DNA from: [Bacillus] enclensis
Lineage (GTDB): Bacteria; Bacillota; Bacilli; Bacillales; Bacillaceae_B
Length of the DNA: 64,000 nucleotides
Assembly: GCF_001456935.1 (NCBI RefSeq)
Contig: NZ_KQ758486.1
Location: forward strand, 1-64,000
Reading direction: 5' to 3'
Numbering within the stretch: the first letter of the stretch is position 1; every line of letters starts with the position of its first letter. A program made the translations under genes and the position numbers. The notes beneath the pieces were generated by a model. It was not told the origin of the DNA. It worked only from the letters and a program-made list of their open reading frames with translations, and did not search any database. Positions 24,166 through 54,271 of this stretch are shown piece by piece.

Positions 24166-25071
24166 ATGCGCGTAACACAAAGCATGTTAACCAATAATTC
24201 AATGAGAAATCTGAGCTCCTCCTATGCCCGTATGGGACAGCTCCAGGACCAGCTCGCCACTGGTAAAAAAATCACCAAGCCCTCCGACGATCCGGTTGTT
24301 GCGATGAAGGGGATGTTCTACCGGTCGAATTTGACAGGGATCGAACAGTATAAGCGAAATCTTTCAGAACTTTATTTATGGATGGATAATTCTGAAGCTG
24401 GGATCGACCAAGCCAATCAGGGGCTTCAGCGTGTACGGGAACTGACGCTGCAAGGTAAGAACGGCACGTTAAGTGAAGAGGATATGAAAGCAGTTGCAGT
24501 AGAAATCGGGCAGATTAAGGCGGACCTGGTCGGAGTGGCAGAAACGAAGGTTGCAGGACGGTACATTTTTCACGGGACTGATGTAGACAATTCACCTATA
24601 AAAGATGGAAATCCGGCAGACGGCACTGCCCCTCAGGTTGCAAATAATCTGACAAGTGCCGTGATTGGTAATTATAATGTTGAAGTTTCACAGGGTGTAT
24701 CCTTAAAAGCCAACGTAAACCCGGGCAATGTTTTCAGCCAGAAGCTGTTTGATACGGTCCATAATATTCAAAAAGCGTTGGAAACAGGGGATACGGATGC
24801 TCTTGATACAGAACTTGGGAACTTGGACGATGTCATGGAAACCCTGTCTGCAGAGCGCTCAGAACTGGGTGCCCGTTACAACCGCCTGGAAATGATCGAC
24901 GACCGCCTTGGTCAGCAGGAAGTAGTGGCTAATCGAATCCTGTCTGACAACGAAGATGCAGATATCGAACGGGTCATCACCGATTTGAAAACCCAGGAAA
25001 GCGTCCATCGTGCTGCCCTGGGGGTCGGAGCAAGAATCATCCAGCCTTCACTAATGGACTTTTTAAGATAA
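24166..25071 (+). CDS. flgL: Flagellar hook-associated protein 3, FlgL
   Basis: 301 residues. Second junction protein, flagellin-like. N-terminal MRVTQSMLTNNSMRNLSSSY with QLATGKKITKPSDDP and the C-terminal helical region (ARYNRLEMIDDRLGQQEVVANRILSDNEDADIERVI) are typical. It is co-transcribed with flgK. A long hairpin lies between it and yviE. Confidence 0.96.
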   Translation: MRVTQSMLTNNSMRNLSSSYARMGQLQDQLATGKKITKPSDDPVVAMKGMFYRSNLTGIEQYKRNLSELYLWMDNSEAGIDQANQGLQRVRELTLQGKNGTLSEEDMKAVAVEIGQIKADLVGVAETKVAGRYIFHGTDVDNSPIKDGNPADGTAPQVANNLTSAVIGNYNVEVSQGVSLKANVNPGNVFSQKLFDTVHNIQKALETGDTDALDTELGNLDDVMETLSAERSELGARYNRLEMIDDRLGQQEVVANRILSDNEDADIERVITDLKTQESVHRAALGVGARIIQPSLMDFLR

Positions 25072-26580: not shown

Positions 26581-27799
26581 ATGAGAATTAATCATAATAT
26601 TGCTGCTTTGAATACTTATCGTCAGCTTAATAGTGCAAATGTAGCACAAGGAAAATCAATGGAGAAATTGTCTTCTGGTCTTCGTATTAACCGTGCTGGA
26701 GATGATGCAGCTGGTCTTGCGATCTCCGAGAAAATGCGTGGTCAAATTCGTGGATTAGATCAAGCATCTCGTAACTCTCAAGATGCAATTTCTTTAATTC
26801 AAACTGGTGAAGGTGCATTAAATGAAACACATGATATTCTCCAACGAATGAGAGAACTAGTAGTTCAAGCAGGAAACACAGGAACTAATGAAACAGAGGA
26901 TTTACAAGCAGTTCAGGATGAAATTACTGAGTTGATTAATGAAGTAGACGGAATAGGCGATCGTACACAATTTAATGGAAAGACATTGCTTGATGGTAGT
27001 TGGGATGGAACAGCTGGAGATGGTACTGATGATTTAGTGTTTCAAATTGGAGCTAATCAAACCCAACAACTGACATTAAATCTTAACAGTATGAAGGCTG
27101 CAGATTTAGGTACAACTACAACAATTGCTAACATTGATGTAACGGACTTTGCCACTACTTCTTTTGATAATCAGCTAGCGGGTATTGATGAGGCAATTAA
27201 TTCTGTTTCAGCAGAACGTTCTAAAATGGGCGCATATCAAAATCGATTAGAGCATACTATTAATAACCTAGGTACTTCGTCTGAAAACCTAACTGCTGCA
27301 GAATCACGTATTCGTGACGTAGATTATGCTTTAGCTGCTTAGCAGCGACAAGCACAGTCGTCCTGACTGGGAACGGTCAGAGATCATAATTGGGTGAATT
27401 GCTGGAAACCCCTAAGAGCTTTTCTTGCCACAACGTAGTTGGAAACGACAAGCGTGATGGTTAGATAAAAGAAAAGATTGGGCAATCAGCAGCCAAGCTC
27501 CTGTGAGGAAACTCTGGAGAAGGTTCAACGACTAGGATAGACCATCTAAGGCGAAAGCTATGGTGATGAAATCCGTAGGTGAAACAATGGTCATCAGCAT
27601 TGTGAATCCGAAGTGCCCAACCCCTACTGGAATGCCAGAGGGTGAAGATATAGTCTGGTCATTTATGAAAGTAAATGTTCGCACGATGGCGAAAGAAATG
27701 ATGAACCAAACAAAGAATTCTATTCTTGCACAAGCATCTCAAGCAATGTTGGCTCAATCCAATCAAATGCCTCAAGGAGTTTTACAACTTCTGAGATAA
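26581..27799 (+). CDS. hag: Flagellin, interrupted by group I intron 1
   Basis: Filament subunit. Exon 1 (26581-27324, 248 codons) runs from MRINHNIAALNTYRQLN to SRIRDVD. Unspliced RNA would add YALAA and stop at 27340-27342, losing the C-terminal D0 helix. Joining 27324 to 27686 restores DVD-MAKEMMNQTKNSILAQASQAMLAQ and ends QSNQMPQGVLQLLR at TAA 27797-27799. A second intron and a second copy of the last codons follow before the hag terminator. If intron 2 is also removed (27754 joined to 28127) the tail is QANQQPQGVLQLLR and the protein has 285 residues. D1/D0 domains are complete and the D2-D3 part is absent, as in short Bacillus flagellins. Sigma-D promoter and CsrA sites upstream. Confidence 0.9.
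27325..27685 (+). ncRNA. Group I self-splicing intron 1 in hag
   Basis: 361 nt. The 5' exon ends in T (27324) and the intron in G (27685), as group I rules require. Core signs: TGGGTGAATTGCTGG (27391-27405), GGTTCAACGACTA with P7 strand GACTA (27530-27534) pairing with TAGTC (27651-27655) of GAAGATATAGTC, and a P9-like hairpin CATTTA/TAAATG (27660-27677). No endonuclease gene inside. I could not fix the P1/internal guide pairing, so the 5' end rests on restoring the flagellin frame. Group I introns in hag are known from Geobacillus stearothermophilus. Confidence 0.85.
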
Positions 27800-28126
27800 T
27801 TGATTAGAGGGCGTCCAGTTTTGGTAACGAGCTGGAGTATAACTGGGTGAATTGCTGGAACTTCCTAAAGCTTCATCAACCACAACGTAACTGGAAACGG
27901 TAAGCGTGTTGGTTTGAAAATGATGAGGATGATACAATGGATAATCAGCAGCCAAGCTCCTGTGAGGAAACTCTGGAGAAGGTTCAACGACTAGAATGTA
28001 CTGTCTAAGGCAATCGTTATGACAATGAGATTCGTAGGGTGATGGAAATCATTCGAAGTGCCCAGCCCCTTACATATAAGGGTGAAGATATAGTCTATTC
28101 TATGATCGAAAGACATAGTCGCAAAG
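27755..28126 (+). ncRNA. Group I intron 2 (second, tandem copy of the family)
   Basis: A 52-nt block (27943-27994) is identical to 27484-27535 of intron 1; TGGGTGAATTGCTGG recurs at 27844-27858. P7 strands are GACTA (27989-27993) and TAGTC (28091-28095), P9 is CTATG/CATAG (28100-28118), and the end ...TCGCAAAG aligns with the end of intron 1. The 3' end at 28126 is fairly firm. The 5' end at 27755 (after GCT) is inferred from restoring LA-QANQQ; the predicted intron would then start with a second set of C-terminal flagellin codons and a stop, which is odd. The intron could also begin nearer 27800. Confidence 0.75.
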
Positions 28127-28171
28127 CAAGCGAACCAACAACCACAAGGAGTTTTACAACTTCTTCGTTAA
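28127..28171 (+). other. Second copy of the flagellin C-terminal codons (exon 3)
   Basis: CAAGCG... to TAA at 28169-28171 codes for QANQQPQGVLQLLR, the usual end of flagellin. Twenty bases (CAAGGAGTTTTACAACTTCT) are identical to the first copy at 27773-27792. It lies before the hag terminator, so it is in the hag transcript. Confidence 0.75.
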
Positions 28172-46640: not shown

Positions 46641-46732
46641 CTGCGATAAAGGCAAACTAATTCGAAAGATTAGGACGCAAAGCCACGGATCTAACGTTTT
46701 TTTGAAACTATGACCGCCGGGCTGCCGAAAAG
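46641..46732 (+). ncRNA. Cyclic di-GMP-I riboswitch (GEMM-I)
   Basis: The conserved pieces are in order: GATAAAGGCAAAC, a GAAA-type tetraloop stem (CTAATTCGAAAGATTAG), GGACGCAAAGCCACGG, and ATGACCGCCGGGCTGCCG. This is the c-di-GMP-binding class I aptamer. The expression platform is the terminator at 46767-46798, and the regulated gene is the 90-residue orphan at 46863. A -10-like TATAAT lies at 46515-46520, with TTACAA 16 bp before. Confidence 0.92.
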
Positions 46733-54148: not shown

Positions 54149-54271
54149 CTCTTATCCAGAGAGGCGGAGGGACTAGGCCCGATGAAGCCCGGCAACCTTC
54201 ATGCCTGCGAACAACTCGCAGCTGCATGAAAAGGTGCTAATTCCTGCAGACGAAAGTCTGAAAGATAAGAG
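54149..54271 (+). ncRNA. SAM-I riboswitch (S-box)
   Basis: P1 strands CTCTTATC and GATAAGAG, with the S-box core AGAGGCGGAGGGA, GGCCCGATGAAGCCCGGCAACC and AAGGTGCTAATTCC in order. It binds S-adenosylmethionine and stops transcription of metY-metX when SAM is high. Confidence 0.96.

Follow-up and report, generated by a model that had tools for sequence, protein, structure and literature searches.

Two tandem group I introns in a flagellin gene of [Bacillus] enclensis begin with an in-frame ssrA-like tag and a spare C-terminus

The flagellin locus and its two introns

The stretch of DNA analyzed here, 64,000 nt of the [Bacillus] enclensis genome (hereafter the window), carries the flagellin gene hag, which is interrupted by two group I introns (Table 1). 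A preliminary description of this DNA had proposed two tandem group I introns in the flagellin gene and asked for a covariance-model search with the Rfam group I model RF00028. That search was run and bears the proposal out, as both introns score above the curated gathering threshold of 50 bits (intron 1: 27353–27677, 86.0 bits, E 1.6e-20; intron 2: 27780–28118, 75.4 bits, E 2.5e-17) and both alignments span the conserved ribozyme core. Several of its more detailed readings were also correct: the unspliced flagellin frame reaches a stop at 27342 unless a 361-nt segment (27325–27685) is removed, both segments end in G (27685 and 28126), and both contain an identical block of 52 nt, starting at 27484 and 27943. 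The 5′ exons end in U at both introns (GTAGAT at site 1 and TTGGCT at site 2). Removal of both introns gives a flagellin of 285 aa that aligns over its full length with five intronless homologues at 66–73% identity.

A genome-wide search returned two Flagellin_N matches, one at 26587, which is hag, and one at 24178, which we take to be FlgL from its place in the operon; hag therefore appears to be the sole flagellin gene. Of the five RF00028 matches in the genome, two are those in hag and a third, at 74.6 bits, lies in nrdE; the remaining two, at 38.1 and 26.7 bits, fall short of the threshold. The weaker of these last two (L005, C1:1304554–1304810, minus strand) lies in an apparent split tRNA gene that adjoins an intact tRNA. 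Elsewhere in the window we also noted two riboswitch aptamers on the plus strand, c-di-GMP-I at 46641–46729 (82 bits) and SAM at 54149–54271 (91.6 bits).

Table 1. Features of the interrupted flagellin gene, in window coordinates.
Feature	Position	Strand	Evidence
hag exon 1, ends ...AESRIRDVD	26581..27324	+	ORF; Flagellin_N match at 26587
Group I intron 1, 361 nt, U precedes, G last	27325..27685	+	RF00028, 86 bits; 54 distinct same-site 5′ regions
ssrA-like in-frame tag TAT GCT TTA GCT GCT TAG (Y A L A A stop)	27325..27342	+	Read from first intron base
P1 and its extension	27322..27359	+	Fold of L001; extension covaries in 54 introns
Flagellin exon 2, MAKEMMNQTKNSILAQASQAMLA	27686..27754	+	Reading frame
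Group I intron 2, 372 nt, U precedes, G last	27755..28126	+	RF00028, 75.4 bits; GCU/GGC guide pairing
Spare C-terminus in intron 2, QSNQMPQGVLQLLR stop	27755..27799	+	Reading frame
Flagellin exon 3, QANQQPQGVLQLLR stop	28127..28171	+	pN/pS 0.08 over 17 distinct exon-3 copies of 26 relatives

What the unspliced RNA encodes

The gene has 37 codons left at intron 1 and 14 at intron 2. The preliminary description overlooked the YALAA-stop at the start of intron 1 and the full flagellin C-terminus at the start of intron 2, both of which emerge when the flagellin frame is read into the introns. Unspliced hag RNA encodes a protein of 253 aa that ends ...RIRDVD-YALAA, the five extra residues being read from the first base of the intron. 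RNA that has lost only intron 1 encodes a 285-aa protein ending QSNQMPQGVLQLLR, and RNA that has lost both introns encodes one of the same length ending QANQQPQGVLQLLR; the predicted C-terminal peptides are SNQMPQGVLQLLR when intron 2 is kept and ANQQPQGVLQLLR when it is spliced. The start of intron 2 is thus a recoded copy of the 14 residues that the intron displaces. Read in this way, intron 1 contributes an ssrA tag ending, and intron 2 a spare set of 14 residues. The preliminary description had also suggested that filament assembly depends on splicing, which on sequence grounds holds for intron 1 and does not hold for intron 2, since RNA that retains intron 2 still encodes a full-length flagellin.

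YALAA has the features of an ssrA-type degron, with a C-terminal Ala-Ala, Leu at position −3 and Tyr at position −5. The E. coli ssrA tag is AANDENYALAA, of which the last two alanines matter most for ClpXP, and E. coli ClpXP degrades GFP-YALAA and does not degrade GFP-LAA (PMC7652416). ClpX is present in the window's genome, as is a tmRNA that encodes the tag GKSNNNLALAA; this tmRNA was located in L004 by the Rfam model RF00023 and was missed there by ARAGORN. This tmRNA gene (L004 1172–1777, C5 at about 154 kb) is itself interrupted by the group I match of 38.1 bits, which is below threshold. Introns are known in other tmRNA genes, and some tmRNAs are reported to encode a tag that consists of Ala-Ala alone (PMC11915505). 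The tag of intron 1 is written into the flagellin reading frame by the intron, rather than being encoded by tmRNA for addition to stalled ribosomes, and so it would act like a tmRNA tag without being one.

Introns at site 1 in relatives

Loci in relatives were gathered from three sources: a flagellin scan of genome contigs, from which the best 80 of 582 relatives were taken; a BLAST search of the intron core against 36 genomes of the family, 28 of which matched, some of them through nrdE introns; and core patterns sought in 397 genomes of the order (67 matching) and 398 of the class (40 matching). The tag sequence was absent from all of the queries. The window sequence itself was included as locus L001, the copy used in the folds and surveys. 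Site-1 introns were found in hosts that include Fictibacillus, Paucisalibacillus, Anoxybacillus, Thalassobacillus, Metabacillus, Neobacillus, Halobacillus and Paenibacillus.

The last residue before the stop is Ala in all 54 distinct site-1 introns, written with four different codons (GCC 25, GCT 16, GCA 7, GCG 6), and the residue before it is Ala in 51, Val in 2 and Thr in 1. The whole tag YALAA, with all of its degron features, occurs in 30 of the 54. It is important to note that introns entered this list only if a stop lay no more than 8 codons from the site; a recount without the stop-distance condition found the Ala-stop in 52 of 52 true site-1 introns. The 54 introns belong to one related family and are counted without correction for the tree, so they do not represent 54 independent origins. 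Chance was rejected as an explanation for YALAA, as the Ala-stop is kept in every site-1 intron counted while its codons change synonymously.

In the fold of L001, P1 of intron 1 is formed by GATT (27322–27325) with AGTC (27356–27359) and places a U.G pair at the splice site, TGCTT (27327–27331) pairs with AAGCA (27350–27354) as the P1 extension, and GCTGC (27334–27338) pairs with GCAGC (27342–27346) to form a hairpin that holds the tag. The exon and guide triplets at site 1 are GAU/GUC in 54 of 54 introns, and the outer stem of the P1 extension covaries (TGCT/AAGC 28, TGCC/AGGC 5, TGAC/AGTC 3, TGTC/AGAC 2, and others). The tag hairpin is perfectly paired in 37 of the 54. Since the tag codons sit in a hairpin stem, part of the Ala-Ala conservation is structural. 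With that said, the coding arm of this hairpin has 4 versions against 17 for the best-fitting partner arm, a contrast somewhat inflated because the non-coding partner was picked by best fit. Both the RNA and the peptide are, on this comparison, constrained at site 1, and the peptide seems to be held more tightly than the stem requires.

Introns at site 2 in relatives

The survey of site 2 covered 45 distinct introns at or adjoining the site, including that of the window, and was made without any choice by ending pattern. A complete flagellin C-terminus is encoded at the start of 43 of these introns, and the remaining two encode a short tag instead (...AML-DEMAA in L054 and ...AMLA-QLLVA in L688). 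Flagellins of Exiguobacterium (L007, L060) and Peribacillus (L063) are among those that have site-2 introns with spare C-termini. Exon 3 is intact by pattern in 41 of the 45 and by eye in one more (L060); the pattern also missed L693, L694 and L696, which resemble site-2 introns with spare C-termini.

A narrower set of 26 relatives, selected for an LL-type ending together with a second pattern of residues and without the window's own copy, was used to compare the two C-terminal copies. The pN/pS ratio is 0.16 among the intron-encoded copies (25 distinct) and 0.08 among the exon-3 copies, and between the two copies of one gene it is 0.13 over the last 8 codons. Residues specific to a lineage tend, judging from these alignments, to occur in both copies: AV is common to both copies in 2 loci and GV in 24, and the final residue is Q in both copies in 2 loci and R in both in 23, with one K/R mismatch. 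Because the loci were chosen by their ending pattern, this table of 26 could show no exceptions. L679 and L681 speak against shared residues, since in each of these two loci one copy has QSV where the other has QQV.

The exon and guide triplets at site 2 are GCU/GGC in 24 of the 26 relatives and UCU/GGA in 2, the latter being a compensatory change across the splice site, and a G precedes exon 3 (CAAGC...) in all 26. In the window, the exon GCU at 27752–27754 can pair with a guide GGC at 27810–27812, so that the terminal U of the 5′ exon is paired with a guide G at site 2 as it is at site 1. The idea that intron 2 is a dead relic at the 3′ end of the gene was rejected on two grounds: purifying selection acts on exon 3, and the bases paired at the splice site covary.

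Tandem pairs and their distribution

Among 148 distinct flagellin genes in the gathered loci, 33 have an intron at site 1 only, 24 at site 2 only, 19 at both and 72 at neither. The count skips genes with fewer than 1000 bases left in the locus (L054, for example), and L688 is counted as site 2 only, although its site-2 intron is close enough to site 1 to fall inside the 160-nt search range. The preliminary description had called two introns in tandem unusual. This stands only in part: tandem pairs recur, and we rejected the view that they are rare, though 19 of 148 is not a frequency in nature because the sample is enriched for introns by construction. Within the window's genus, species differ in whether they have these introns, a pattern to be expected if introns are gained and lost.

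Introns outside flagellin

We scanned viral contigs for core strings and read the longest host ORF into each intron. Across all gathered loci, flagellin included, there were 672 anchors: 32 lay too close to an end, 101 lacked the J6/7 string, 81 were duplicates, 223 had no clear host ORF and 235 were kept. Of those kept, 155 fell into 97 non-flagellin clusters. The host ORF ends in Ala-Ala-stop (AA-stop) in 13 of these 97 clusters, mostly from phage, or 11.2 if members are weighted. In the background, this ending closes 41 of 1923 open frames of at least 120 codons from the same loci, and it is absent both from the 188 stops read in the two alternative frames and from the 69 in-frame stops that come next; the enrichment among the 97 clusters gives Fisher values of 7e-7 and 5e-7. 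The share of 13 in 97 is diluted, because some of the ORFs are endonuclease ORFs and not true hosts. The other 84 clusters have no AA-stop, and the tag is therefore not a general need of group I introns. A stricter first filter, which asked for a P7-like string, lost 307 of the 672 anchors and left 86 clusters; under it, with the four commonest ends per cluster considered, AA-stop was found in at least 9 of the 85 clusters besides the main flagellin one.

An Rfam group I match lies at the tagged place in 10 of 14 non-flagellin introns with an AA tag, and the other four (L168, L182, L234 and L472) are below threshold. The hosts of these 14 include seven major head protein genes and one tail sheath gene. 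The 84 untagged hosts, among the 25 of 105 families listed, include ribonucleotide reductase (7), DNA polymerase (5) and major head protein (4, 3 and 2), with terminase, photosystem II D1 and endonucleases among the further families. Fisher values for the association of the tag with head proteins (0.0003 and 0.0015) are too kind, as 25 of the 105 families are listed and a member is possibly counted twice, and we regard the link as weak. On these weak counts, tagged introns may perhaps be commoner in genes for filament and shell proteins, which would fit a role in keeping broken subunits out of assemblies.

In Bacillus phage SP-15 the major capsid gene, annotated as split, reads into ...ALYAFDAA-stop just before an intron core string; this intron was recognized by the annotation and the core string, not by an Rfam score. 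Phages YMC13/03/R2096 and ICP1 showed no host ORF at an anchor. The window's genome also has an intron (L003, C1:1007153–1007478, minus strand) in a gene that, from its protein sequence, is presumably nrdE, and there the read-through ends GSRRG-KAA stop. Across nrdE introns the read-through ends are KAA in this genome and KVA, KTA and K elsewhere, with GSR in four others, which might represent a weaker series of tags. In five viral contigs (L174, L178, L209, L236 and L255), the read-through of an intron-bearing gene, which we assume to be photosystem II D1 (psbA), ends ...RRGPVLAI stop, where LAI is not the usual AA.

A proposed role for the intron starts, and alternatives to it

Both introns have splice sites located by pairing and covariation, and the peptides read from their starts are conserved in many relatives. 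We consider it probable, from the sequences compared here, that the intron starts are an evolved safeguard at the protein level against translation outrunning splicing, with intron 1 providing a tag and intron 2 a spare end. Both segments would be group I ribozymes that excise themselves from the flagellin mRNA. Because translation is coupled to transcription, some flagellin would be translated into the intron: a ribosome following close behind the polymerase would meet each 5′ splice site before the ribozyme is complete, and we infer that such unspliced translation is frequent. At intron 1, the ribosome would make a truncated flagellin (253 aa, without its C-terminal helix) and add YALAA before stopping inside the P1 hairpin. 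The missing helix is needed for filament assembly, and we predict that the tagged protein is destroyed, probably by ClpXP. At intron 2, the 14 recoded codons and their stop would complete the protein whether or not the intron is spliced. The presumed advantage is that the cell is spared a poisonous or wasteful partial filament protein.

It is possible to read the introns as regulatory switches instead, in which filament output follows the spliced fraction, itself under the control of temperature, GTP or growth state, and the degron cleans up after the off state. Temperature-dependent splicing is cited for the flagellin intron of a thermophile (PMC4853749), and splicing of T4 introns is said to fail in stationary-phase hosts and under translation arrest (PMC11878797). 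We nevertheless think this reading unlikely, given that species of one genus differ in whether they have the introns and that the product is almost unchanged by intron 2, which disfavours a needed switch.

A further possibility is that the tag is a by-product of RNA structure, where a P1-extension hairpin with a stop in its loop was selected to halt the ribosome before the core and its GC-rich stems happen to read Ala-Ala. The tag does lie within a hairpin in the folded flagellin introns, the stop is in or adjoins the loop in many of them, several phage tags have a C-GUAA-G loop, and group I introns are known to contain in-frame stops (PMC3984707). Against this, a search in all frames near the intron start placed every GCNGCN-stop in the frame of the host gene (14 of 14 cases outside flagellin and 29 of 29 within it). 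The few forms of the coding arm relative to its partner, although that partner was chosen by fit, also argue for selection on the peptide. The stems of L054 and L688 look quite different by eye, that of L688 being an A+U-rich hairpin unlike that of intron 1, and yet they encode DEMAA and LLVA. Finally, 12 of the 14 non-flagellin tags have I, L, V or F at −3 (2.5e-5, assuming a chance of 0.3). We reject pure RNA structure as the source of the tag on the evidence of host frame, arm variety and position −3, and hold the by-product reading to be decidedly improbable. It is most improbable of all that intron 2 lies behind the true gene end, with QSNQMPQGVLQLLR as the native C-terminus, the downstream copy a relic of another flagellin allele and no splicing of intron 2 needed: RNA retaining intron 2 does encode a complete flagellin and recombination between alleles could leave such a copy, but the copy is intact in nearly every locus surveyed, and in the 26 relatives compared it is under strong purifying selection, the splice pairs covary and a G always precedes it.

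Relation to known systems

Group I introns in flagellin genes of thermophilic Bacillus and Geobacillus have already been published (cited in PMC3984707 and PMC4853749). The introns described here share with them their class and their host gene; relative to those accounts, as they are known via the citing papers, the present gene has two introns, and in-frame tags or spare C-termini lie at the intron starts. A stop just inside the intron is likewise known for group I introns, where it is thought to aid ribozyme folding by stalling the ribosome (PMC3984707). Compared with plain in-frame stops as covered there, in hag the codons before the stop are conserved as well, as a degron or a spare end.

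The tag of intron 1 shares its end, YALAA, with the tmRNA tag of E. coli, and the tag of the organism's own tmRNA ends LALAA, so that all are of the C-terminal Ala-Ala kind. It differs from a tmRNA tag in being encoded in cis and made by ordinary translation to an ordinary stop, with no ribosome rescue. A closer parallel in this respect is found in the repressors of mycobacteriophages with integration-dependent immunity, which, in the accounts available (PMC13314858, PMC4557955), also carry a cis-encoded ssrA-like tag on one form of the protein. In those phages DNA integration removes the tag, whereas in hag RNA splicing would do so. Among the literature matches listed, whose coverage leaves out bioRxiv and most subscription journals, we found no earlier description of intron-encoded degradation tags or spare protein ends.

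Implications

Introns in bacterial protein genes have been argued to be selected against because translation is coupled to transcription (PMC3984707). The hag introns suggest an answer to this cost, in that an unspliced message would still make a safe product. Extending this beyond hag, it is likely, going by the read-through ends, that group I introns in genes for abundant self-assembling proteins carry a degron or a spare end that renders a failure of splicing harmless. The genes in question would be those for flagellin, the phage major head protein and the tail sheath, and in them, we expect with similar confidence, the main cost of an intron would be removed. Any bacterial or phage intron can be examined from its sequence, by reading the host frame through to an AA-stop or to a copy of the displaced end. 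If the proposal is true, RNA splicing and the ClpXP protease would be connected, and a mobile RNA element would have a new and directly testable way to reduce its cost.
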